Of a stretch of 64,000 nt of DNA, positions 22 through 58,599 are shown piece by piece; position 1 is the first letter of the stretch; every line of letters starts with the position of its first letter. Origin of the DNA: Bolinopsis microptera (Eukaryota; Ctenophora; Tentaculata; Lobata; Bolinopsidae); assembly GCF_026151205.1 (NCBI RefSeq), contig NC_087080.1, positions 7,853,096 through 7,917,095 of the forward strand, given 5' to 3'. Below the pieces are notes generated by a model. It searched no databases. It had not been told where the DNA came from and saw only the letters and a list, made by a program, of their open reading frames with translations. The translations under genes and the position numbers were made by a program.

Positions 22-773
22 ACACACATGTTACACCAGATAAAGGTGTACCTGAGGGTGGGGAGCCTGTTAGTTTACACGTGTTACACCAGATAAAGGT
101 GTACCTGAGGGTGGGGAGCCTGTTAGTTTACACATGTTACACCAGATAAAGGTGTACCTGAGGGTGGGGAGCCTGTTAGTTTACACATGTTACACCAGAT
201 AAAGGTGTACCTGAGGGTGGGGAGCCTGTTAGTTTACACATGTTACACCAGATAAAGGTGTACCTGAGGGTGGGGAGCCTGTTAGTTTACACGTGTTACA
301 CCAGATAAAGGTGTACCTGAGGGTGGGGAGCCTGTTAGTTTACACGTGTTACACCAGATAAAGGTGTACCTGAGGGTGGGGAGCCTGTTAGTTTACACAT
401 GTTACACCAGATAAAGGTGTACCTGAGGGTGGGGAGCCTGTTAGTTTACACATGTTACACCAGATAAAGGTGTACCTGAGGGTGGGGAGCCTGTTAGTTT
501 ACACGTGTTACACCAGATAAAGGTGTACCTGAGGGTGGGGAGCCTGTTAGTTTACACGTGTTACACCAGATAAAGGTGTACCTGAGGGTGGGGAGCCTGT
601 TAGTTTACACATGTTACACCAGATAAAGGTGTACCTGAGTGTGGGGAGCCTGTTAGTTTACACGTGTTACACCAGATAAAGGTGTACCTGAGGGTGGGGA
701 GCCTGCTAGTTTACACATGTTACACCAGATAAAGGTGTACCTGAGGGTGGGGAGCCTGTTAGTTTACACATGT
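22..773. repeat. 53-bp tandem satellite array, about 14 copies
   Basis: A 53-bp unit (starting gttacaccagataaaggtgt and ending ttagtttacac) is repeated about 14 times with almost no divergence. The main variation is one base giving either acacgtgt or acacatgt at the unit junction, so several copies carry a CACGTG E-box and the rest do not. Each unit contains a short hairpin, tacacc-agataaa-ggtgta. One copy has a G-to-T change (gagtgtgg) and one has gcctgctag. The array probably begins outside the window. High identity implies recent amplification. Confidence 0.97.
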
Positions 774-2702
774 TTCCTGACCATTGTAGTGACTTGTTGG
801 AAGTGTTTGGGAGTGTAGGTATCACTGAAACGTAGGCCCTCGTCTCATTTCTAACAAAGCTTTATTTTATTGTATTGTAACAGAATTGAGAGAACGAGGA
901 GTAGTGAGGTGCACCAGACATATGGTTGTTAGGTCTTTTATAATGTTAAGCAGCATGCAGATATTGGACACATCTTGATAGGCTTGCTTTGTAAACGAAG
1001 AAGCAGAAGGCGAATGTGAGGCACCATGAATCATTAATAACGAGATGATAATACTACTCACGCCTTATCATACTCCTCGTAAATATTCAAACTATTCATA
1101 TTCTAATATCTTCACCTTGTTAACAGCCTACTAGCGCCATTGTAACCGTACAGAATAACCAGGCCCACACTATAAAACTTACTCAAGTATAATTTATTCC
1201 TTAAAATGTTAATTGTAAGAGTGCTTTGAGGGAATAACCATCTCTAAAGAATAGCACATTTAGCTCTACATATCTACAGTTATTACGTAATGATACTTAA
1301 TGCACTGATACGCCTAACCCACAACAGGGAATACGGTATCAGATTACATCTCCTCCTCACTTATTACCGGCTAGTGCAGCAAATCTCGCTGCTATTTTCC
1401 TACCCGCAGAAAAATATTATCATGGAGTTATTTCTGGCATGCTACGTCAAAAAAAGAAGGCATTTTTGAAGCACTTAGCTAAGAGGTATCTACGTATTTT
1501 GTGCCGACATATTTTCCATCTAGATCTACAAAACTTATATTATTGCACGTCAAAAGTAATGCGAGGAAGTTGGAAGGGATGTTGTAAGGATTTGGAGGGT
1601 GAGATGATGATAGCTGGTAGCACTACAAAATGTTATGCGGAGTGTGTCGTGCGTGCGAGATGAGCACGAGAGCAGCCGAGAGCAGATGTCTCTTCAAAAT
1701 GAGAAATTGTTAAAGATTTCTGAATTCTTTAGTAAGTAAGCGAGGAGTCAAGGGAATGTGATGATAGGCATAACAGTGTAACTCAAAGAAAAGACTGAGG
1801 AATTCATCAGATCAGTAGCAAATTATGCGATCTGGAAGAAAGATGTAGACCCTACCAAGGAATAGCACAACATGATTCTATCAGTACTATTACTAATCAA
1901 ATGAGACTCACGCAGACAGTTGAGGATTTTCCCACAGGGCCACATAGCTGCCTACTTTGACTAGGGGAGAGAAGGGTCGGAAGATAGGAGCGAGGGGGTT
2001 TCCTTCGATAACTGGGGGTCGTTTTAACTTTGCTGGGGTTTCGATGTAGAGCTCGGACTTTTGGAGTCCCCCGGCAGCCGGCATCACATAGCTAGATCTA
2101 TTGATGTATTAAATTAATAATATTATCAATAATTGACAAATTAATTTATCAAGGTGATTTGATAATTGATTGCAAAATTTTAGCAGACAGAGGGAGGGGT
2201 TAGGGTGAGATTTAGGGCTCGCTTCTAATTGTACTACTGAGACAAATCCGTACAAAGATACAATCCAGCACTTACGTGTAGCTATTAATAGCTCCTCGTC
2301 CTGCAAAATGCACAATAATGTCAAGTAGCTATCAATTGAGCACTCACTAGAAACAAGTAACATTGGACGCGCTTAACTGTTAAAAAGATGTAAAAATTAT
2401 TGGACTATACATCGGAATTCAATACTTCAATACACTATAAATTTATGCACGCAAAAATAAAAATAACTGTTTCTGAAAATAGCCTAATAGGTCCCAACAG
2501 GTGGAACAGACGTGATGAAAGGTTAGTAAAATTCATAACTATTAGAATAACATCACTAAAACACGTATTAGAGCATCATCTAACAACTATTATAAAACCT
2601 ATAACTTTGTAAAAACCCAAAGAACCCGCGTTTTTTAATGTCGAAATTAAAGTAAAATTAAACAATAAAAACCATGCAAATTGCAAATTTATCTATCACA
2701 TA
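774..2702. other. Intergenic, nothing recognised
   Basis: AT-rich sequence between the satellite and the TKFC 3' end. I found no exon with convincing splice signals and no recognisable protein similarity. Short open frames here are of chance length. Confidence 0.6.
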
Positions 2703-15139: not shown

Positions 15140-17072
15140 AGTTAACTTTGTCGTATTTTAAAACAAGTTACTTGGGCCCCGTTCGTAGAGAAGATAGATT
15201 TGCTGTGTTTTAAAACAAGTTACTCGTGCCCAGTTCGCAGAGAAGATAGATTTGCTGTATTTTAAAACAAGTTACCCGTGCCCAGTTCGCAGAGAAGATA
15301 GATTTGCTGTATTTCAAAACAAGTAACTCAAGCCCAGTTCGCAGAGAATATAGTTTTGCTGTATTTCAAAACAAGTAACTCGGGCCCAGTTCGCAGAGAA
15401 GATAGATATGCTGTATTTTAAAACAAGTTACTCGTGCCCAGTTTGCAGAGATTATAGATTTGCTGTCTTTTAAAACAAGTAACTCGTGCCCAGTTTGCAG
15501 AGAAGATAGATTTGCTGTATTTTAAAACAAGTAACTCGTGCCCAGTTTGCAGAGAAGATAGATTTGCTGTATTTTAAAACAAGTAACTCGGGCCCAGTTC
15601 GCAGAGAATATAGATTTGCTGTATTTCAAAACAAGTGACTCGTGCCCAGTTTGCAGAGAAGATAGATTTGCTGTATTTTAAAACAAGTAACTCGTGCCCA
15701 GTTCGCAGAGAAGATAGATTTGCTGTATTTCAAAACAAGTAACTCAAGCCCAGTTCGCAGAGAATATAGTTTTGCTGTATTTCAAAACAAGTAAACAGTT
15801 TGCAGAGAAGATAGATTTGCTGTATTTCAAAACAAGTTACTCGTGCCCAGTTCGCAGAGAATATAGATTTGCTGTATTTTAAAACAAGTTACCCGTGCCC
15901 AGTTCGCAGAGAAGATAGATATGCTGTATTTTAAAACAAGTGACTCGTGCCCAGTTCGCAGAGAAGATAGATTTGCTGTATTTTAAAACAAGTAACTCGT
16001 GCCCAGTTCGCAGAGAATATAGATTTGCTGTATTTCAAAACAAGTAACTCGGGCCCAGTTCGCTGAGAAGATAGATTTGCTGTATTTTAAAACAAGTTAC
16101 CCGTGCCCAGTTCGCAGAGAAGATAGATTTGCTGTATTTTAAAACAAGTAACTCGTGCCCAGTTTGCAGAGAAGATAGATTTGCTGTATTTTAAAACAAG
16201 TTACCTCGTGCCCAGTTCGCAGAGAATATAGTTTTGCTGTATTTTAAAACAAGTGACTCGTGCCCAGTTCGCAGAGAAGATAGATTTGCTGTATTTTAAA
16301 ACAAGTTACCCGTGCCCAGTTCGCAGAGAAGATAGATTTGCTGTATTTTAAAACAAGTGACTCGTGCCCAGTTCGCAGAGAAGATAGATTTGCTGTATTT
16401 TAAAACAAGTTACTCGTGCCCAGTTCGCAGAGAATATAGTTTTGCTGTATTTTAAAACAAGTGACTCGTGCCCAGTTCGCAGAGAAGATAGATTTGCTGT
16501 ATTTTAAAACAAGTTACTCGTGCCCAGTTCGCAGAGAATATAGATTTGCTGTATTTCAAAACAAGTAACTCGGGCCCAGTTCGCAGAGAAGATAGATTTG
16601 CTGTATTTTAAAACAAGTTACTCGTGCCCAGTTCGCAGAGAAGATAGATTTGCTGTATTTTAAAACAAGTAACTCGTGCCCAGTTTGCAGAGAAGATAGA
16701 TTTGCTGTATTTTAAAACAAGTTACTCGTGCCCAGTTCGCAGAGAAGATAGATTTGCTGTATTTTAAAACAAGTAACTCGTGCCCAGTTTGCAGAGAAGA
16801 TAGATTTGCTGTATTTTAAAACAAGTTACCCGTGCCCAGTTCGCAGAGAAGATAGATATGCTGTATTTTAAAACAAGTGACTCGTGCCCAGTTTGCAGAG
16901 AAGATAGATTTGCTGTATTTTAAAACAAGTTACTCGTGCCCAGTTCGCAGAGAATATAGATTTGCTGTATTTTAAAACAAGTTACTCGTGCCCACTCCGA
17001 GAAGATAGATTTGCTGTATTTTAAAACAAGTTACTCGTGCCCAGTTCGTAGAGAAAATAGATTTACTGTAGT
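15140..17072. repeat. 52-bp tandem satellite array, about 37 copies
   Basis: The unit tttgctgtattttaaaacaa / gttactcgtgcccagttcgc / agagaagataga is 52 bp and repeats for about 1.93 kb. Copies differ at a few positions: agttact, agtaact or agtgact; gttcgc or gtttgc; agaagata or agaatata; tttt or tttc. Combinations recur, which suggests amplification of multi-unit blocks. A few units are shortened, at about 15794 and 16995. No open frame runs through it. Confidence 0.97.
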
Positions 17073-35475: not shown

Positions 35476-38400
35476 CGTGCCCACAGCTGGAGTGACAGGC
35501 GAATTCACGTGAGTTGAGTAGTGTCGAACATCAATGTCGCTGTCATTTTGTAGTTCTAACAAACTTTTTTCAACTTGATCGTTCTTTGTATTCTCTGAGA
35601 GTGATTCGTTTAGAATGTGCACAACAGTAAATTCTTTTCACTACGTTTAGAACAGTCAAGTTCAACGAATTTAAGTCGGACGAATATAAACGTTAGTCTC
35701 GAAAGTTCCGCATGCAACTCTGGCTTGAAAATTTAAACCGCAAAGTTGAATAACAACTTACTTTGAAGTAAGAGCAAAGCCTGTCCGACCCAGAGTCGAA
35801 CATTGGGTGTCCTATCAGTTACAAGTTCCAGCAGTTCGTTAACGAAGGAGGTGTCAATTACATCGTACTGTTCGTCTTGTAGCAGCTCCAGGCAGATTAA
35901 CACGTAACTGAGAACACGGTATGTTAATAATATGTGCTACATTGGCGTGGTTTATCTATTAATGTACCAGATTATTCCATTAATTGTTAAAACGAATAAA
36001 GCAAGTCTACGCCTGTCGTCATTTTTCGTTTCCCAAAAACCTCTTTTTATATGTATTAATGGTTCTTAAGGTGAACATTATCAGTAATCAGGCATACCTC
36101 TGACGGTAAGTGAATTTGTTTGAGCTGGCAAACTTTGTCCTGATAGTCTCACACGTCGTCTCATAGTACTCGGTCTCCGACTGATTCTTGAACTTTTGTA
36201 TCAATTTTGATAGCTGAAAATGTTATGAAATCAAGAAATTTTGTCATAAAATTTTACTCAACTCAATACATTTCAGCATCGTGCGTGTCCAGTAGAAAGT
36301 GTGAATTAAAAGTTTAGATGGAGCACGATATTTAGTTATAAAAGAGGAAACAGAGACTTATCACTTACAGCGGTGAAGCTAGCCTGTCTCACTTGAGACA
36401 CCTGATCCACGGTCAGGTTAAGAACGATAGGCTGGATGTGTTCGTAAACCTCCTTCGTCGTGTACAACTCGCTCAGGTGGGGCAACTGGCTGTAGGATGG
36501 ACATATACATTTTTAATTTCTGTACAATAGTTGAAACACAGAGGTAAATTTCACATGGTTTAGGTACAAATAAAACATACAATTCTTTTCTTACCTCGCA
36601 AAAGTTTGCCTATATCGCCAATTTTTGCGGTCTTCACATTTCTGAATTTCTTTCATTTGCTGGAGCAACTCTTGTCGGTAGCGTGGGGACACGTTCTGTT
36701 GGATAACAAGTTTATTGGAATGTTAGAACACTAATAATAACAATTAATCATTCTGGTAACATACCCGAATTGCGTTTTAAGTGCACTAGATTGGAAGCAA
36801 ACTCACAACGTCAAGTTTTTTCAGGTGTTCACGTAATTAAAATATGATATCAAACTGTGAAATTTCACCGAATTTTGCGTAAAATCGTTATCACACTGCA
36901 CACACTGCAAGACGAGACCTTAACAAGCGATAACCACATGACAATGAATCGCACAAGTATTCTTCCCTTTCTGTTTTGATACACAGCTTAGCTCAATTGA
37001 GGAATTCTGTTGTGGTCAAGTTTGAATGGCAGCATGTCAAATTCGATTAATAGTTCTTTATGATGCTAAGACTAAACATATTAAAATATACACATCAAGC
37101 CAAGCAAAAACTGCTGCCTTTTGCAGGATGCAATGGTGTTTATCAAAGCGATTCTTAAAATAATGCTGCGTTAACGATGGCCTTTTTGATCTTTGTACAC
37201 ACGAATCTGCGCCTGTAACTTATCTGCATAAATAATACAAGTTGTATAAGTGATATTGGACGAAGAATTGAAATATTAATAGAATTACCTGCAAGAACTT
37301 TGACAAGTTTTTGAGTAGACCAATCTTAACAGAGTCAATATCGTATATGAAGTTGTTGAAGGGGTGGATAAGATCTTGTTCCGTTTGTTCGGGCCCAATC
37401 ACATGTGCTATTTCGTGCAGCGAACAGGCTAGAGTCTGACGTACATTTGACTGAAAAGGACCTTGATAAAAGGAAAGAACTTGATAACGTATTTTTGAGT
37501 AAAACGCGAACATATTATTTGCTTATAACACTATAACAGCGCTATTCTTTTATATTTTAACTTCTTACCATGGAATGCGGTAAGTTCTCAGCTAGAGTAA
37601 GATATGTATTTCTCAGTAAACTCCAAGAATCTTTTCCTAAAGTGTAAACGACACCAGGAAACGCGTAAGCACAATGGGTGAGGATGTCGTCATCCTGACG
37701 AGGGTTATTTTCGTCTACGTTGCTGGCCATGCTCGTGTAGCAGTCTATTAGCGCTCCAGGAACCGGCGACTGAAATGACTGTGTTTGAAGGTTTATGTGG
37801 TTGTCTAATTATAGATAAACTTTCGGGTGGACATTTTTTAGTGATAAGAGCGGTAATTCTGCGTCTTGCCGGGATATTTTACCAAATATTGAAGCGCGCG
37901 TAGAATACGCGCGCAAAACTAAATATTGAAAAGATGAGTTTTTAACGCAAACTTGTTGATTTTACACCGCGCGCGACGTGTACAACTGCGTCAAAACCTA
38001 AGGTTTCGCTCATGTTCAGCTGACACCTATATTGTGAATACACCGTCGTGACTTTTGGAGGAAAAATTCTGCGCTTATTGCGACAGTCACATACTCGAAT
38101 CTGGCATAATCGTGGAGGAAGTTCAAGTATCGAATTTTGAAAATTCTACAATCTCACAATTATTTTCAGCGTACTAGAATTCCTAGTGACAAAAATTATT
38201 ATTCATAAAGATAATAAGCAAGCATATAAAGTAAGGTCGCCGTGCATGACGTTTCATCAGGTGACAATTATATATTTCGGCGAAAAATAAAATTTTGAGA
38301 TTCAAACTTCGGTCGGCCCGACGCGACGGTAGCTCAGTTGGCAGAGCGGCGGACTGTAGCGGTCTAACCAAAGTTATCATTAGGTCACCAGTTCAAATCT

Positions 38401-41400
38401 AGGTCGTCGGACATTACCTTTTTTGTATCAACATATAATTTTCGAAATCATAATTTATTTCGAGTCTATTTCATACTCCGGTTGATTAGAGCTATGAGAT
38501 AATCAATAGGATCAAGTCATATATTCTTTTAAGTTGGCACCACTCTTGTAACGATACTAAAAATAATGAAAAAGAAGGAGTATGAGTGCATAAAAACAAC
38601 TGGTGACGTCATGAATGGGTCATTAAGTAATACCATGAACTCACCGAAACACTCGGAATATCTGAAGTCTCAATATCCATGTCAGATGAATCCTGTAAAG
38701 TGTGGACAACAGTTACTCTAAGGTGTAGTCACTATAGTTACCAAAGTAGTTACTATATAAGTGTAGTTACGACTTACGGCTCTAGGTTTTAAAATACAAT
38801 TACCGCATCAAGAGACGACTTACGAAAGTAGGAATACCCCGAAATACATAAAGCAAGGCATATTTTCTAGAAAGTTCCGTTACATTCGGTGCCATGCATA
38901 ACGGGATATAATATGATACATATTTTTGTTCGCAATGCCGTGTCCAATAACACATCATGATATTTCAGGACATGTTTTAATTTTAAATGAACAGCTCGAA
39001 TACTCATTACTCAGTACTTACGCTGGCCAGCTCCAGATCCTCATCTTTTTGTGAGAAGCTGTACGCTGTTTCGTTTTCATTTTCATTCTCCAGCACCTAG
39101 ATTGGATTAGACTGGTAACAACACCAGAAATTGCACACATTAAACTGTCGTACATACCGTTAAGTGCAGAATGTCAGGATTGAGTATGGTATGTAGAATA
39201 GTGTAAGTGTGTACAGTGTAGTGGTGTAATAAAGTGCTGTGCAAGCTGCAGAATGTTATTATCAGCTGCCACGACTATCATATTACAACTCTATATCCAG
39301 ATATACACCTACTATAATCAGTAAAACACGTCTAGTATGCTAGGAGCGGCTATTATCAACTGTTCTTGTGTCACGTACATGCACTGTTCATATGTCACGT
39401 GATCAAGTGAAAATGTGGGATCTTGTTAACTGACAATGTTATATATATGTTATGGTCAGTAATACTGACTCACTGACTGGGCCCCAAGGGATGCATTTGT
39501 TTTCAATATTGGTGTGAACTGTGAAAGTTTGTATTCCAGGTTAAGTCGGATTTTGCAACATTTCACACCTAATATATGTTATTATGTTACAAAACTAATA
39601 TATGTTATTATGTTTGCATACCTAATATCTGTTATCGGAAAAGGATAATAATAAAACATGGAAGAATGTGACTTACCCCAAATACAGGTTTGGTTATATC
39701 AATGGTTCCGACTAAGACTCCTCCTTCCTCTCCTTCTTTCTCCTTACCCTCCTCACCGGTCTCACAGTCAGATAATTTAATTATCTTGGGAGCTAGCGGG
39801 TCTTTGTGGAACTCACTGTGAAGAGAAAAGGTTTTAAGTTATTTACTTACTTCTTTTAATGTTTCAAGTCTAGATCAAATTAATCATGAAAAAAGGATTT
39901 AATTAAAAACTATTTTAGGAGTTTTTAAAGCTATTCCACAGTAGATCCCGTGATTAAATCTCATTCACATCTGCCTCATCCCCCAATCATTCACCAAAAG
40001 CTACGTCTTCTTAACCGTGTGATAAACATGACAAATTTGGAAACTGATTATACAAACAATTCAACATAGTACATATATCCATTATCCAACCACAGCAGTT
40101 CATCTCTTAACTTTCTTTTGATAACTCTTGTTAATCCTTCTATGCTTAATCCAGGTCCCAACTCCCTATCTGTACTCTACCAAAATGTCCAAGGTCTTAT
40201 TCCTTTCAGTAACCTAAGCTCCTCCCATCCCCTTCTTGATGGTAATAAGATTTCCGAACTTCAATCCTTTGCTAACATAGAGCAGCCTGACATAATTGCC
40301 CTAAATGAGACTTGGCTCAAAAAGTCTATTTCTAGCAACGAAATCTTTCCTTCATCTCAATATGAAATCTTCCGCAATGACCGCACAAGAAAGACTCATC
40401 CTCAAGATCCTAATAACCCTAAAAAGTTTAGGGAAAATGGAGGTGGTGTTCTTTTGGCTGTTCGGTCTGATCTCGACGCCACTACAACCCGACTACCAGT
40501 TAGCCTAGGTGCAGAAATGCTTGCCGTTAAAATTGCTTTTCCTAACAAAGAGAGTATTGTAATCTGTACTTGTTATAGAGTAGGAACTCTTGGGTTACCT
40601 AATCATGATGTCATAGTTAGTTATATTCGCAAGCTAGTTTCCAAAAAGAATCCCCCTAAAATCTATGTTATTGGTGATTTTAATCTCCCCCATACAGACT
40701 GGCTATCTTCATCCAGTACCGTACCTATTGAGCAATCCTTCATAGATTCTTTCAGTGATCTTTCTCTCTCCCAGTTGATCACATCACCCACCCATAAAAG
40801 TGGTAATACATTAGACATTCTTCTCAGTAATTATGATAACACAATTGATAACTTGAATGTCTGTGATCCTCATTCCGTGTGCAAATCTGATCATTTTCCT
40901 GTCACTTTTTAAATTAAAAGCTCCTTTTCCCGTAAGAAAACTCCTAAACGTAAAATCTATAATTTTAAGAAAGCAAACTGGGACATCGTGAATTATGCTC
41001 GATTAATTGGCAAGTCCTAGAATGCCTAGATCCTGATTCGTCTTGGAAGTTAGTTAAAGACTGCATTATGAATTTAGTTGATATACATATTCCTAAAGTA
41101 ACTATTAAATCAGAGTTCCAACCCCCGTGGTTCGATAGTGAACTTTTTTCTTCATGCCGTAAAAAAGATAGACTCAGAGCTAAATTTAAAACTTCTGGTT
41201 CTATTTCTGATGAGTTAAAGTTTGTTACTAGCCGTAAAGATTTTAAGAGGCTCTCATCAGCCAAAATAAGAGATAATCTTTTCAATAGTGATGATCCAGC
41301 GCTTATAACTAAGAAGTTTTGGTCACATGTTAAGTATAAATCTAACTCCTGCCGTATTCCTAATTGTGTTAGTTATTCTGGACAGCTTCGGTTCAAACCC

Positions 41401-44400
41401 AAAGATCAAGCTGAACTTTTCAATTCTTTCTTTTATAACCAGTTTTCGGATCCTTCACTTTATGACACTGACATCTCCTATGTCAATGATGTTGATTTTG
41501 ATATTGACTTCGATCATCGGGATGTTCGTAAGCTTCTTTCAAATGTTAATTCAAATAAAGCCCAGGGACCAGATGGCATACACGGTAAAATTCTAAAAAA
41601 TTGTTCCGTAGGTTTAGCTTACCCTCTAACATGCATTTTTCGTGGATCCTACAACAGCGGCTACATTCCACAAGAATGGAAACTTGCAAATGTTGTCCCA
41701 ATATTTAAGAAAGGTAAGAAAAGTGAGGTTGAAAACTATAGACCAATATCCCTTACTTGTTTAGTCATGAAAGTTTTTGAGCGCATTGTTAAACGTAAAC
41801 TGCTTTCTTTGACAAGTACCCTTCTTGATCCCAGGCAGCATGGTTTTCTAGAGCACAAGTCATGCACAACCAATATGGTTGACTTTTGTGATAGCCTGGC
41901 ATTGTCTCTTAACGAAAACATTATTAATCATGTTGTGTATTTTGATTTTGCTAAGGCATTTGATTCTGTAAATCATGATATCCTTCTTCATAAGCTAAAG
42001 ACCTTATATAAGATTGATGGTACACTTCTCAAATTTCTTACCAATTACCTTCAAGGCCGTTACCAAAGAGTGGTTATTGGTAATGAGATGTCATCTACCC
42101 TCTCAGTTAATTCTGGTGTCCCCCAGGGCTCTATCCTTGGTCCCTTACTTTTTGTATTGTTTATCAATGATATTCCTCTTGGCCTTTCGGATAATACTGA
42201 TATTGTTTTGTATGCCGATGATACAAAAATCTGGCGTAAAATACATTCATCTTCTGATAATACTAATTTACAAATGGATATAGACTATCTCTCTGACTGG
42301 GCACTTAGAAACAAAATGCGATTCCATCCAGCAAAATGTAAAGTGCTTATTGTTTCAGGAAAACCATCTTTATCTCCTCCATTCGCATATAATCTTGATG
42401 GCTCTCCTCTTGTGTATGTAGAGTTAGAAAAAGATCTTGGAGTCGATGTTACTCCTAAGCTAAGTTGGAATAGTCAGTGCGACAGAATTTATACTAAGGC
42501 CTGCCAACAACTTGGTATGGTCAGAAGAGATGGCCATATTGTCATTGATCTGAAACGTCGCCGGGCGCTTTACCTCTCCCTAGTTCGTAGCCAATTCGAA
42601 AATTGTTCCATAATCTGGCGCCCTTGTAATAAATCACTTAGTGATAAATTAGAAAGTCTCCAAAAGAGAGCTATTAAATGGATTCTGTCTGAAGAGGGCC
42701 GCAGTTATCCACCTGAGCAATATGTCAAAAAGTGCAAGCTTGTCGACATTCTCCCTTTGTCTCAAAAGTTTGACTTGAATGATCTTATTTTTTTCCACAA
42801 AGTTCTGAACAATTTAATTCCTGTATCGCTGCCTCACTATCTCTCTTTATATCAGGGCACTTCTCGACTAAGACGTTGCCACCTCGACAGTCTGTCTATT
42901 GTGTCATCAATTTTACCTAAGTTAAGTCAGAATTCACTCACCATATGTACCTCAAATAGCCCACTGGCAAAATCATTTTTCTACAGAACCCACATACTGT
43001 GGAATGGACAGATTGTGTCTACTAGTCTTTTCAAAGCTGAGGTCACTAAGCATCTATGGAAATGTTTATTGGATAGTGAAACAACAGTCTAGCCTAGTCT
43101 TCTGCTCCCCATATTATTATTATTTTTGTTTTATTAATTTTTATCTACCTTCCTATACTTTCAACATCATATCACACTTCACCCGCACACCTTCTCACAC
43201 ATTAATGACCATATCAGACCTGTATCTAATGTATCTGGAATTTGACGTATTGAAATACCAATTTTGACTATATATCCACAGTTATTCACCATGGATTTGT
43301 TTGTTATTAAATAGTTTTTCATAAATTTTTGGATTTAGATTAATTCGATGTAATGGGTCCAAGTTACTGCGGACATAGTTCACTATGTGTTTACCGTGTT
43401 TGGGTGCCCATCATATTTTACAGATGGGGGCGATATTTTGAACGATTCTATTTTATATTCATCTATTGCTGTACTCTGTAAAATTTGAAAAGTATTTAAT
43501 AAACAAAAATCTTATAACAGGCCATCACGGCCCCACTTTCACATTACTCACAGACTCAACACCAACCCTACTTCTTACAAATGTATCCTAAGACAGCTCA
43601 ACTCCCAGCTACTCTGGACCACTAAGCATGACATGATTCTCCCCTCGTCAGTCTTCCTGACGCCCAATAACGCCCCTCTTATATATCTGATCCAGGTACC
43701 ATTAGTCTCGTGTAACCACCTCAAGCAATCACAAAACGTTTAGGGGCCAAGGCCCAAGCGAATGACTCGGTTGTTGAAAGTATTTTTTAGAGTTCTACGC
43801 TAGAGTGGGCCAATAATCCAGTGGAGCTGCAGCCCCCACCCCCTCCCCAATATCTCACCTTAACTGATCGGGTGTAGCCCCCCCCCCCACATATCTCACC
43901 TTAACTGATCGGGTGTAGCCCCCCCCCCCCCCCCCGGCCCCAATATCTCACCTTAACTGATCGGGTGTAGCCCCCCCCCCCCCCCCAATATCTCACCTTA
44001 ACTGGTCGGGTGTAGCCCCCCCCCCCCCCCAATATCTCACCTTAACTGGTCGGGTGTAGCAAGACCCCAGTCAGGGCTCTTACTGACTGAGAGGTTACTG
44101 TCAAATACTTCCTCCTCTTCCTTTGCTCCTCTTCCTGACTCCACTGTTGGTTCTACCTGGTTCTCCACCTGGAGGATAGCATAATTAATTAATTACTTTA
44201 TTGATATTTTAATTACTTGATAGCTTCCAGTCACCAACTGTTCGGAAATTCAGGCGGAATTTAGACGTGGTCTTCTCATTTTTAAATTGTTATTAAATTG
44301 AATGATCGTTCTGCTGAGCTAGCATATATTTTGGAGTAAGTTTTTATGTTGTGCACAAATTTCAAACCTGCACGTTTTCCTTGTCCTCTTCTACATCTGG

Positions 44401-47400: not shown

Positions 47401-50400
47401 GATGAAAGATAGGAAGAGGAGGAGGGGGACTGAGAAAGGGGACTGAGGAGGGCCAGGGGGACTGATAAGGGTGCTCAGGAGGAAGAGGAGGGGGGCTGAG
47501 GAGGAGTGAGACTGAGGAGGAAAACTGAGGAGGAGGAATGAATAGGAGGAGGAGGAGAAGAAGAAGGACTCAAGAGGAGGAGGACCGAGGAGGAGGAGGA
47601 CTAAGGAGAAGGATGAGGAGGAGGACCCAAGAGGAGGAGGACCCAAGAGGAGGACCCAGGAGGAGGACCCAGGAAAAGGCCCCATGAGGAGGAGGAGGAG
47701 AACTGGGGAGGAGGAGGACTGATGAGGACTGATAAAGAGGACTGAGGAGGAGGAGGACGAGGACGAGGAGAAGGACTGAGGAGTGAGGAGGAGGACTGAT
47801 GAGGAAAAGGAGGTGTATAAGGAGGATGAGGAGGACTAAGGAGATGGAGGATGAGGAGAGGACTCAGGAGGAAGAGGAGGAGGAGGACCTATGAGGATGA
47901 GGATGAGAAGGAGGGTGACTGGGGGGATGACTGAGGAGGAGGAGGAAGACTGAGGAGGAGGAGGAAGAGGAGAACGACTGAGGAGGAGAACGACTGAGGA
48001 GGAGAAGGAGGAGGAGGAGGGCCCAGGAGAAGGAGGACCCAGGAGGAGGACCCAGGAAAAGGCCCCAGGAGGAGGAGGATCCTCCTCCTCGAGGAGGAAG
48101 ACTGGGGATGAGGAGGACTGTTGAGGACTGATGGGGAGGACTGAGGACGAGGAGGAGGAGGAGGACTGAGGAGGGGAGGAGGAAGAGGACTGAGGAGGAT
48201 CAGGAAGACCCAGGAGGAGGACCCAGGAGGAGGAGGAGGAGGAGGACTAAGGAGGAGGACTGAGGAGGAGGACTGAGAAGGAGGAGGACTGAGGAGAACT
48301 GAGGAGGAGGAGAAGGATGAGGAGGAGGACTGAGGAGGAGAATGAGGACTGAGGAGGAGGACTGAGGAGTACTGAGGAGGAGGACTGAGGAGTACTGAGG
48401 AGGAGGACTGAGGAGTACTGAGGAGGATGGCTGAGGAGGATGGCTGAGGAGGATGGCTGAGGAGGATGACTCAGGAGGAGGACTTAGGAGGAATGAGAAG
48501 GAGGAGGACTGAGGAGAACTGAGGAGGAGGACTGAATAGGAGGAGGAGGAGGGGGACTGGGGAGGACGGAGGAGGAGGAGGACTGACGAGAAGGACGAGG
48601 AGGAGGACTGAGGAGGAAGAGGAGGAGGATGAAGAGGAGGAGGAGGACCCAGGAAGAGGAGGAGGAAGAGGACTCAGGAGGAGGACTTAGGAAGACTGAG
48701 AAGGAGGAGGACTGAGGAGAACTGAGGAGGAGGAGTGAATAGGAGGAGGAGGGGGACTGAGGAGGACTGAGGAGGAGGAGGACTAACGAGAAGGATGAGG
48801 AGGAGGACTGAGGAGGAGGATGAGGACTGAGGAGGAGGACTGAGGAGTACTGAGGAGGATGGCTGAAGAGGATGGCTGAGGAGGAGGACTGAGGAGGATG
48901 ACTGAGGAGGAGGACTGAGAAGGAGGAGGACTGAGGAGAACTGAGGAGGAGGAGAAGGATGAGGAGGAGGACTGAGGAGGAGAATGAGGACTGAGGAGGA
49001 AGACTGAGGAGTACTGAGGAGGAGGACTGAGGAGTACTGAGGAGGATGGCTGAGGAGGATGGCTGAGGAGGATGACTCAGGAGGAGGACTTAGGAGGAAC
49101 GAGAAGGAGGAGGACTGAGGAGAACTGAGGAGGAGGACTGAATAGGAGGAGGAGGAGGGGGACTGGGGAGGACTGAGGAGGAGGAGGACTGACGAGAAGG
49201 ATGAGGAGGAGGACTGAGGACTGAGGAGGAAGAGGAGGAGGATGAAGAGGAGGAGGAGGACCCAGGAAGAGGAGGAGGAAGAGGACTCAGGAGGAGGACT
49301 TGGAAGACTGAAAAGGAGGACTGAGGAGGACTGAGGAGGAGAAGGAGGAGGAGGAGTGAATAGGAGGAGGAGGGGGACTGAGGAGGACTAAGGAGGAGGA
49401 GGACTAACGAGAAGGATGAGGAGGAGGACTGAGGAGGAGGATGATGACTGAGGAGGAGGACTGAGGAGTACTGAGGAGGATGGCTGAAGAGAATGGCTGA
49501 GGAGGATGACTGAGGAGGATGACTGAGAGGGAGGAGGAGGAGGAGAAGGACTGAGGAGAAGGAGGAGAACCTAGGAGGAGGACCCAGGAGGAGGATTCAG
49601 GAAGAAGAGGAGGAGGAGGACTCAGGAGGAGGACTTGAAAGGACTCTAAAGGAAGAGGACTGAGGAGAACTGAGGAGGAGGAGGGGGACTGGGGGAAGAC
49701 TGAGGAGGAGGAAGACTGACGAGAAGGATGAGGAGGACTGAGGACGAGGACTGAGGACGAGGACTGAGGAGGAAGAGGAGGATGGCTGAGGAGGATGACT
49801 GAGAGGGAGGAGGAGGAGGAGGAGGAAGAGGACTGAGGAGGAGGAGAAGGACTGAGGAGGAGAAGGAGGAGGACCTAGGAGGAGGACCCAGGAAGAGGAC
49901 TCAGGAGGAGGAGGAGGAAGATGCGGACTCAGGAGGAGAACTCAGTAAGAGGACTGAGGAGGACTGAGGAGGATGGCTAAGGAGGATGACTGAGAGGGAG
50001 GAGGACTGAGGAGAACTGAGGAGGAGGACTGAATAGGAGGAGGAGGAGGGGGACTGGGGAGGACTGAGGAGGAGGAGGACTGACGAGAAGGATGAGGAGG
50101 ACTGAGGACTGAGGAGGAAGAGGAGGAGGATGAAGAGGAGGAGAAGGACCCAGGAAGAGGAGGAGAAAGAGGACTCAGGAGGAGGACTTAGGAAGACTGA
50201 GAAGGAGGAGGACTGAGGAGAACTGAGGAGGAGGAGGATAAGGGGGACTGGGGGAGGACTGAATAGGAGGAGGATAAGGGGGACTGGGGGAGGACTGAGG
50301 AGGAGGAGGACTGACGAGAAGGATGAGAGGAGGACTGAGGAGGAGGACTGAGGACTGAGGAGGAAGAGTAGGAGGATGAAGAGGAGGAAGAGGACCCAGG

Positions 50401-51294
50401 AGGAGGAGGAGGACTGAGGAGGATGGCTGAGGAGGATGACTGAGAGGGAGGAGGAGGAGGAGGACTGAGGAGGAGAAGGAGGAGGACCTAGGAGGAGGAC
50501 CCAGGAGGAGGACTCAGGAGGAGGATGAGGACTCAGGAGGAGGACTCAGGAGAACTGAGGAGGAGGAGGAGGAGTGAATAGGAGGAGGAGGGGACTGGGG
50601 AGGACTGAAGAGGAGGATTCCACTAAGGAGAAGGATGAGGAGGAGGACTGAGGAGGAGGATGAGGACTGAGGAGGAGGACTGAGGAGTACTGAGGAGGAT
50701 GGCTGAGGAGGATGGCTGAGGAGGATGACTGAGGAGGATGACTGAGAGGGAGGAGGAGGAGGATGAGGAGAAGGACTGAGGAGGAGGAGGAGAAGGAGGA
50801 GGACTCAGGAGGAGGAGGAGGACTCAGGAGGAGGACTCAGGAGGAGGACTGAGAAGGAGGAGGACTGAGGATAACTGAGGAGGAGGAGGAGGACTGAATA
50901 GGAGGAGGAGGGGGACTGGGGGAGGACTGAGGAGGAGGGGGTCTTGTGGAGGACTGAGGAGGAGGAGGACTGAGGAGGAGGACTGATGATTGAGGAGGAA
51001 GAGGAGGAGGACGAAGAGGAGGAGGAGGACCCAGGAGGAGGAGGACCCAGGAGGAGGACTCAGGAGGAGGAGGAGATCGACTGAGGAGGACTGAGGAGGA
51101 GGTGGAAGAGGAGGAGGAGGAGGAGGAGGAGGAGGAGGAGGAGGAGGAGGAGGAGGAGGAGGAGGAGGAAGAGGAGGAGGAAGCATCTAAATGTTATTTC
51201 CATTTTTGTTATTTTTTGTCCGTTTTTGTCCGCTCTATTTTTTGTCCGTTTTGAAAATATAGGGTACCGAACGGACAAAAAACATGATCCCCCG

Positions 51295-51374
<80 letters not shown>

Positions 51375-57259: not shown

Positions 57260-58471
57260 TTACTTTGATGGCGCTTCATTGACACTTCTTTTGTTTCTAA
57301 GATATTTAGCCATCTTATCAGCCTTGTTTAAAACAATGTTGAAAACTGGATGAGTTGGTTCAATGAGATTGTTCTGATCCCCTCTTATGAAAGTATTTTC
57401 AAAGGAATGCTGCGCAACCGACAAACCACTGAGGCAGTAACAAGTGTGATAGTAGTCTCGAGATTTACCTGGCTTGTCAACTAAGCCTCCACTGGGGTAC
57501 TGACAGCAAAACAGAATGTAATCTTGCAATGCCACTTGCGAAAAGAGCCATTCTTTCTCGTCAAGATTTTTGAGATCAGTCTTTAAAATGTGGTGCAGTA
57601 ATGGAAAAACACCACCCTGCCAAAATGAGTAACATCCATCGACCATTTTATTTGTCCGACCCTGAAAACCTCCTTCAAATTTCATCTGTCTGTGAACAGC
57701 CCAATCTAAAAGTTGATCTTTGTTAATGAGGTGGGTTTTGTTTAATAATATCAGGGCAGCAAGAGAGCAGAAAGTGTAACCACCATGAGCTTCAGTCCCA
57801 GGACGTGATCCAAACCCACCTTCAAAAGTTTGGCACTTAGCTATCCATTCTCCAGTGTTGGCAAAAAGCTCATCAGAATGTATACCACTGAGTTGAGCTA
57901 CAACTGCGGCACAGTAAGCACCTCTCACATCTAATTCACCATCTTTGTGCATGGTAAAGGATCCATCATCATTATGCATATTTTCAAGAAACTGCTTGAG
58001 CTTGTCTGTATCAATAATATCATAACAAGGCTCAAAATCGAGTGAAGCTAAGGCTGAAACTGCAGCATATGTTGTAGCAAGATGTGGCAAGTGTCCAATG
58101 TTACCACAGAAACCACCAGAATCAGCTTGGACAGACTTTAGAAACTCAGATAATCTTAACTGCTGCTCTTGCGATATTTGATCACCCAATAAATTCAGAG
58201 AGTGTAAAATCCAATAACATAACCATGGTCTACTAGCATCTAAGCATTCAAAGTTTTCTGATAGTCTTAGGAGGCCCTTTCGTAGATAGCTTATATGCCG
58301 ACTTTTGTGCAGAGGGAAAGTCTCTTTGAGTCTTGTTCTTCCTTGACAAGCAGAATATATATGTTCCACTGATTCTTCAACAGCAGTTTGCTCCTGAGAA
58401 GTTATAGTTACAGGACCATCCAACTGCATTCGCAAACTAGCCATATCTTTTCCCAATGAGAGAGCCATGAC
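57260..58471 (-). CDS. FNTB: Protein farnesyltransferase beta subunit, main coding exon, 402 aa
   Basis: Catalytic beta subunit that, with the alpha subunit, attaches farnesyl to CaaX-box cysteines. Motifs include ECLDASRPWLCYWILHSL, five QxxxGGF-type barrel repeats (ADSGGFCGN, NDDGSFTMH, FEGGFGSRPG, FEGGFQGR, PSGGLVDKPG), and the zinc ligands Asp277 and Cys279 in MVDGCYSFW and His341 in RDYYHTCYC. Diphosphate/FPP residues are His228 (HGGYTF), Arg271, Lys274 and Tyr280. Numbering starts at the ATG at 58468. The exon begins with acceptor ttgctttacag just before gtcatgg, so at least one upstream exon exists, probably untranslated or encoding a short N-terminus; it was not found. About 400 residues in one exon is unlike the many-exon PPP4R1 beside it. 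Vertebrate FNTB is longer at the N-terminus. Confidence 0.95.
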   Translation of the reverse strand, partial: VMALSLGKDMASLRMQLDGPVTITSQEQTAVEESVEHIYSACQGRTRLKETFPLHKSRHISYLRKGLLRLSENFECLDASRPWLCYWILHSLNLLGDQISQEQQLRLSEFLKSVQADSGGFCGNIGHLPHLATTYAAVSALASLDFEPCYDIIDTDKLKQFLENMHNDDGSFTMHKDGELDVRGAYCAAVVAQLSGIHSDELFANTGEWIAKCQTFEGGFGSRPGTEAHGGYTFCSLAALILLNKTHLINKDQLLDWAVHRQMKFEGGFQGRTNKMVDGCYSFWQGGVFPLLHHILKTDLKNLDEKEWLFSQVALQDYILFCCQYPSGGLVDKPGKSRDYYHTCYCLSGLSVAQHSFENTFIRGDQNNLIEPTHPVFNIVLNKADKMAKYLRNKRSVNEAPSK

Positions 58472-58599
58472 CTGTAAAGCAAGTAAGAGGTTAGGAAATA
58501 AGGACAAAGTATTTAAATTCTAACATCATGTGGTCAAAATGGTCTTAACCTGGGCTGAAGGGTTGCAAAAGCATAACTCATCCTGTTCCTTTTCCATTG

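Follow-up and report, generated by a model that had tools for sequence, protein, structure and literature searches.

Tandem copies of a coding exon end and its 5' splice site in a PPP4R1-like gene of the ctenophore Bolinopsis microptera, with similar arrays at other exon ends

In the ctenophore Bolinopsis microptera, a coding exon of a PPP4R1-like gene is directly followed by an array in which the end of the exon, its 5' splice site and a G-run recur five times. The array is probably a mirage, namely, a neutral minisatellite at an exon/intron boundary, seeded by G-tract microhomology and removed whole from the first donor. Other genes of the same genome also have arrays of exon tail, donor and G-run that begin where a coding exon ends.

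The array at the PPP4R1-like exon

The window (the whole 64,000-nt stretch analysed, from contig NC_087080.1) carries the array on its minus strand at 43831-44060, as five head-to-tail copies of GCTACACCCGAYCAGTTAAG/gtgagatat plus a G-run (a slash marks the exon/intron boundary). The sequence, TRF and a repeat finder agree on this. TRF reports a period of 44-45 and 5.1 copies over the same span (scores 307 and 321; 331 at period 93), and the repeat finder five copies with spacings of 41, 52, 45 and 44. The unit consists of a 20-nt exon tail, the donor gtgagatat and the G-run, and the original of the repeat is the last 20 nt (44060-44041) of exon 44168-44041. Intron 44040-39816, which is 4.2 kb long, has the array at its 5' end. 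The features are as follows.

44041..44168, minus strand: coding exon upstream of the array, 128 nt, ...ATPDQL + AG; acceptor tatcctccag before 44168, open frame
44031..44040, minus strand: 5' splice site 1, exon-proximal, gtgagatatt; predicted from sequence and reading frame as the sole productive donor
43987..44016, minus strand: copy 2, exon tail 44016-43997 and donor 43996-43987
43942..43971, minus strand: copy 3, exon tail 43971-43952 and donor 43951-43942
43890..43919, minus strand: copy 4, exon tail 43919-43900 and donor 43899-43890 (gtgagatatg)
43849..43878, minus strand: copy 5, exon tail 43878-43859 and donor 43858-43849
43831..44060, minus strand: whole array, G-runs between copies (C-runs on the plus strand), from TRF and the C-run list
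39677..39815, minus strand: next coding exon, predicted from sequence; acceptor ttttctcttcacag; starts T GAG TTC, ends GGG/gtaagt, phase 0
37569..37769, minus strand: following exon, ...PHSM, predicted from sequence; acceptor catttcag, phase 0; ends ATG/gtaaga

The array has the marks of a mirage: the copies are tandem and head to tail, the unit spans the adjacent exon/intron boundary, and the splice signal is kept in 5/5. All five donors share the 9-mer AAG/GTGAGA, at a similar distance to the G-run in each. The initial annotation had proposed five copies of exon tail and 5' splice site at the exon end, a duplicated tail of 20 nt, and separation by C-runs that are G-runs in the transcript, and all of this is borne out. 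The tandem spacing also holds, with a range of 41-52 instead of 42-51, as does the extent of the array apart from one edge, which had been placed at 43848 and lies at 43831. Every copy had been said to keep gttaag followed by gtgagatatt; gttaag/gtgagatat is indeed present in all five, but the final t in only four, the fourth copy from the exon ending in gtgagatatg.

Assembly from homopolymer-rich long reads might have produced such an array artificially. The genome does contain G/T hash stretches (for example C1:585013; C and L numbers denote contigs and loci), and G-run lengths vary, those of the present array being 11, 17, 16 and 15, values that may include long-read homopolymer error. However, the units differ by an ordered substitution, GACCAG in the two exon-nearest copies and GATCAG in the three distal ones, and exon-end arrays with different units are found in other genes, which makes an artefact quite improbable.

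Introners can carry splice sites, and a mobile or introner-like element might have inserted at the exon end. A whole-genome search (264.65 Mb, 232 contigs) with a 25-nt unit pattern, allowing up to 3 mismatches, gave five matches, all inside the array, and none in the backward control; homologous copies at unrelated loci were thus not found. Moreover, in each of the 15 exon-end arrays described below the unit derives from the array's own exon. The insertion of such an element was rejected as a candidate and is scarcely credible.

Reading frame and predicted donor choice

The exons of the gene are predictions from sequence, and the choice of donor is deduced from their reading frames. Exon 44168-44041 starts in phase 0, is open in the frame set by the preceding exon, and ends in phase 2 (TTA AG/); the first base of exon 39815-39677 completes the codon AG/T (Ser). 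The phases agree only when exon 39815-39677 is joined to the exon-proximal donor (44041/44040). Splicing from donor 2, 3, 4 or 5 would give TTA AGG TGA, with a stop in the second codon. The glycine-rich insertions that had been suggested for the downstream donors are not borne out, as each of these donors meets TGA in the frame of the neighbouring exons. With 0/4 of them open, alternative tandem donors yielding protein isoforms were rejected at this array.

Further exons of the gene match HEAT repeats (5.5e-13 and 9.6e-8) and its top PDB match is the PP2A-A scaffold (1.2e-16), while a Pfam search of the linker gave no match. A PPP4R1-like HEAT gene on the minus strand is thereby supported; the name PPP4R1 is one that we presume, from a resemblance of the C-terminal exons. 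The region of the gene also holds an AGG-rich array of 3.7 kb (window 47477-51181) and a C-rich run of 85 nt (79 pure C; 51289-51373). Elsewhere in the window, a 52-nt unit is present in 37 copies at 15153-17070, and a farnesyltransferase beta subunit is encoded on the minus strand at 57263-58519 by a single open frame without introns (PDB 1jcq, 3.5e-135). In line with a ctenophore genome, two glutamate-receptor proteins encoded outside the array have ctenophore receptors as their top PDB matches (Mnemiopsis ML032222a and 4zdm, from Pleurobrachia); a third scores higher with kainate receptors. The closest genomic counterpart of ML032222a shares 75% and 72% identity with its two halves.

Arrays at other coding exon ends

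A DNA search with the array led to C13, where about 46 copies of an unrelated unit stand in tandem; this unit comprises the last part of a sushi exon with its donor and a G-run. The pattern CAGGTRAG...G6...CAGGTRAG gave 46 matches against 0 in the backward-letter control, and AAGGTRAG...G6...AAGGTRAG gave 114 against 8. These are counts of rows, and they overstate the enrichment in distinct arrays, since one array each supplies 30 of the 46 and 40 among the 100 listed of the 114. The listed matches to these strict patterns (46/46 and 100/114 rows) fall by eye into at least 18 places. Of 13 looked at, 11 are at coding exons (three with an SMC2 exon, two with VPS11) and two, C11:5204753 and C9:584008, are not. 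Those left out were C12:2141960, C2:10947162 and SMC2-like rows at C9:166-184, 234 and 285 kb.

Altogether 32 arrays were examined (the window array, the C13 sushi array, L010-L024, L025-L029, L031 and L041-L049). Fifteen, in 14 genes, begin precisely where a coding exon ends; as most of the 32 were picked for a donor-like motif in the unit, 15/32 is no genome rate. Besides the array of the window they are the following.

L009 and L043: sushi genes, coding exon end (L043 Pfam score below cut-off)
L010: ADP-dependent glucokinase, coding exon end (PF04587 4.8e-21; PDB 5ccf 2.6e-6)
L011: SLC7 cationic amino-acid transporter, coding exon end (PDB 9uat 1.7e-11)
L013 and L014: EGF-like exons, coding exon end (below Pfam cut-off)
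L017: Ly6-like exon, coding exon end (by eye)
L022: Kazal gene, coding exon end
L045 and L046: VPS11, two copies, coding exon end (PF23356 3.7e-16)
L048: SMC2, coding exon end (PDB 9f5w 4.5e-34)
L042, L044 and L047: three exons without assigned family, coding exon end

Two further arrays probably belong here (L012, L026) and one is undecided (L015/L030, known without its upstream end). The remaining 14 have no visible adjoining exon (L016, L018, L019, L020, L021, L023, L024, L025, L027, L028, L029, L031, L041 and L049). A Pfam search with the exons of L017, L026, L042, L044 and L047 gave no match.

The two VPS11 loci look like paralogues in sequence, agreeing at 508 of 643 aligned upstream bases, with 114 gap columns; their spacings are 63, 60, 63 versus 55, 55, 61. 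An SMC2-like exon is found on three chromosomes, each time with one and the same 61-nt exon-end unit behind it, at C2:10996400-10999600 (L048), C9:108500-110500 (L052) and C13:10792300-10795300 (L050). That the units on C9 and C13 are a dispersed satellite was ruled out, since both places inspected carry the SMC2 exon and are thus gene copies. At C2:10970000-10972000 there is another repeat, and the SMC2 unit is absent. The longest run of donors is in L047 (C13:15593587-15602022), where near-identical 65-nt units stand at a coding exon end, with 60 donors in the 5.5 kb read and further matching rows that bring the array to about 8.4 kb overall.

Two other repeats were noted. At C9:7355640-7360400 (L015, L030), at least 4.7 kb consist of 47-nt units ending in GTGAG/GTGAGT, with short G-tracts. 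At window 24-774 on the minus strand (and further left, outside the window, in L053), a 53-nt unit is repeated about 14 times directly before the open frame of a membrane-protein-like exon (YTFIWCNMCVLLHVVFG...), for which Pfam gave no significant match. This unit holds CTCAG/GTACACC and may, from its sequence, be a second mirage in the window, of donor or acceptor type.

Downstream donors and constraint

Over the 15 arrays, 213 downstream donors with intact motif, within the stretches read, were scored. With 205 of them translation would stop ahead of the new donor, with 4 the frame would shift, and with 4 the insert would be open and in frame. The last four comprise all 3 downstream donors of one VPS11 copy and 1 of 4 in the Kazal gene, where short in-frame peptides could be added as alternative isoforms. 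With only 4/213 open overall and none at the PPP4R1-like array, such a role of the downstream donors is highly improbable. In the ADP-glucokinase and the SLC7 transporter, whose downstream exons were read too, the junction made from the exon-proximal donor aligns to 5ccf and 9uat with no gap at the point where the exons meet.

Another possible role is regulatory: surplus donors with G-runs would compete for U1 or fold as G-quadruplexes, and downstream use, ending in a stop and degradation, would tune expression. The stops after 205 of the 213 donors agree with this, and the motif shared by the five donors of the PPP4R1-like array, at similar G-run distance, makes competition possible. However, copy number ranges from 2 to 60 across unrelated genes, and the donor is no better conserved among copies than the rest of the unit. 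In 220 copies of 9 arrays, mismatches amount to 13/1100 (1.2%) in the donor, 46/4747 (1.0%) in the exon tail and 30/1957 (1.5%) in the intron part, with no conservation specific to donor positions +1 to +5 (P 0.50 and 0.52 versus the other parts). The GT is intact in 220/220 scored copies, which might be taken for a sign of constraint; given about 1% mismatch per base, we estimate this outcome at less than once in a hundred for independent copies, but the copies are not independent and those scored were limited to at most 5 mismatches. Also, mirages in amphioxus are reported not to disturb splicing (PMC3087553, PMC3902484). A regulatory function of the arrays is thus unlikely.

Unit build and strand bias

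In the 15 arrays the repeated exon tail measures 13-45 nt, with a median of 21, and 6-28 nt of intron precede the first G4. The G-run abuts the exon tail in 10/15; in L043, L047 and SMC2 a G-rich tract lies inside the tail itself, and L013 and L044 are slightly different. The tail begins with G in 9 of 14 independent tails (binomial P 0.002 against 25%) and lacks an initial G in the other five genes. The G-starting tails fit a first duplication between an intron G-tract and an exon G.

GTGAGT...G7...GTGAGT gave 168 matches against 88 in the backward-letter control, and GTGAGT...C7...GTGAGT 26 against 18. The comparison favours G-runs on the transcript strand (168 versus 26 rows, for the GTGAGT patterns only, the G7 rows and their control being inflated by a few long arrays). 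The G7 list holds by eye at least 22 distinct arrays in 100 of its 168 rows, 11 of which, chosen by eye, were inspected; the C-run array inspected (L024) has no visible adjoining exon. The acceptor pattern TTTCAG...G6...TTTCAG gave 62 matches against 17 in the control, which on visual inspection are for the most part single occurrences or members of one dispersed GC-rich family, and no exon is visible beside L023, an array with an acceptor-like unit.

Two broader, less biased lists, with flanks read for 4/9 and 6/22 arrays, do not establish a preference for splice sites over the rest of the genome. One list (100 of 3278 rows) spans the first 11.8 Mb of C1 and shows by eye at least about 9 regular G-run arrays; two of the four whose flanks were read are at coding exon ends (L010, L011). 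Units starting with TC (100 of 148 rows listed) form by eye at least 22 arrays; among six with flanks read, L010 is verified and L026 probable. In most unread units of both lists no strict donor was seen by eye.

Proposed origin

The mirage at the PPP4R1-like gene would have begun when a stretch made up of the final ~20 nt of the coding exon, its 5' splice site and the G-tract that follows directly in the intron was duplicated in tandem. In the first duplication, the intron G-tract may have been joined to an exon site that contains a G and lies 13-45 nt further upstream, through slippage or through microhomology end joining in a tract prone to form G-quadruplexes, and unequal exchange or slippage would then have enlarged the array. 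The spliceosome is envisaged to take the exon-proximal donor, with the remainder leaving with the intron, so that the extra donors would be neutral passengers. We propose that the arrays are tolerated because the first donor is used.

A wider reading, which we offer tentatively, is that mirages, instead of being peculiar to amphioxus, are the product of a mutational process recurring in a distant animal lineage. The process may be drawn to transcribed 5' splice sites with a G-tract on the non-template strand (coupled to R-loops or G-quadruplexes) and supply exons of essential genes with 2 to 60 or more donors that are nearly identical and compete, with the exon-proximal one reliably chosen by the ctenophore spliceosome. 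If this were true, the arrays would be a natural genome-wide experiment on donor choice.

Significance and relation to known systems

To our knowledge, donor choice among equal sites has so far been asked mainly with artificial constructs. If confirmed with RNA, the present loci would reveal how, in normal genes, one 5' splice site is picked by the spliceosome out of many equal ones, and the arrays would be raw material for splice-site shifts. Mirages would then extend from cephalochordates to ctenophores, with G-tracts pointed to as the seed.

Mirages are described in amphioxus Adh3 and the globins BflGb6 and BflGb9 (PMC3087553), and in lancelet troponin C and PGBD5 (PMC3902484). The initial annotation called the duplication unusual, which is fair in general, but the phenomenon has a name (PMC3087553), and it has counterparts in the same genome. 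What is new is the ctenophore host, the recurrence in many genes and the regular G-tract-anchored build of exon tail, donor and G-run. A search of the open literature, most subscription papers lying outside it, found no report of mirages in ctenophores, including Mnemiopsis and Bolinopsis.

The amphioxus mirages, like the ctenophore arrays, are minisatellite-like tandem duplications of an exon/intron boundary, with AG/GT signals in many copies. The Adh3 unit is 10-72 bp (PMC3087553). The globin units are 150-160 bp and involve both boundaries, whereas in the ctenophore the clear cases are of donor type. The ctenophore arrays differ further by the G-tract in the unit, the regular order of exon tail, donor and G-tract in 15 arrays, and donors that are nearly identical and number up to 60 within the stretch read. 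Tandem duplication carrying AG/GT is shared with the Rogers model of intron gain at AG/GT proto-splice sites, which PMC3087553 cites. Unlike in that model, the ctenophore copies are contained in an intron that already exists, and no trace of an additional intron was observed. Instability of G-tracts or G-quadruplexes, with repair by polymerase theta end joining, likewise has a G-tract at one breakpoint and short microhomology, features that the junctions of the ctenophore arrays suggest.
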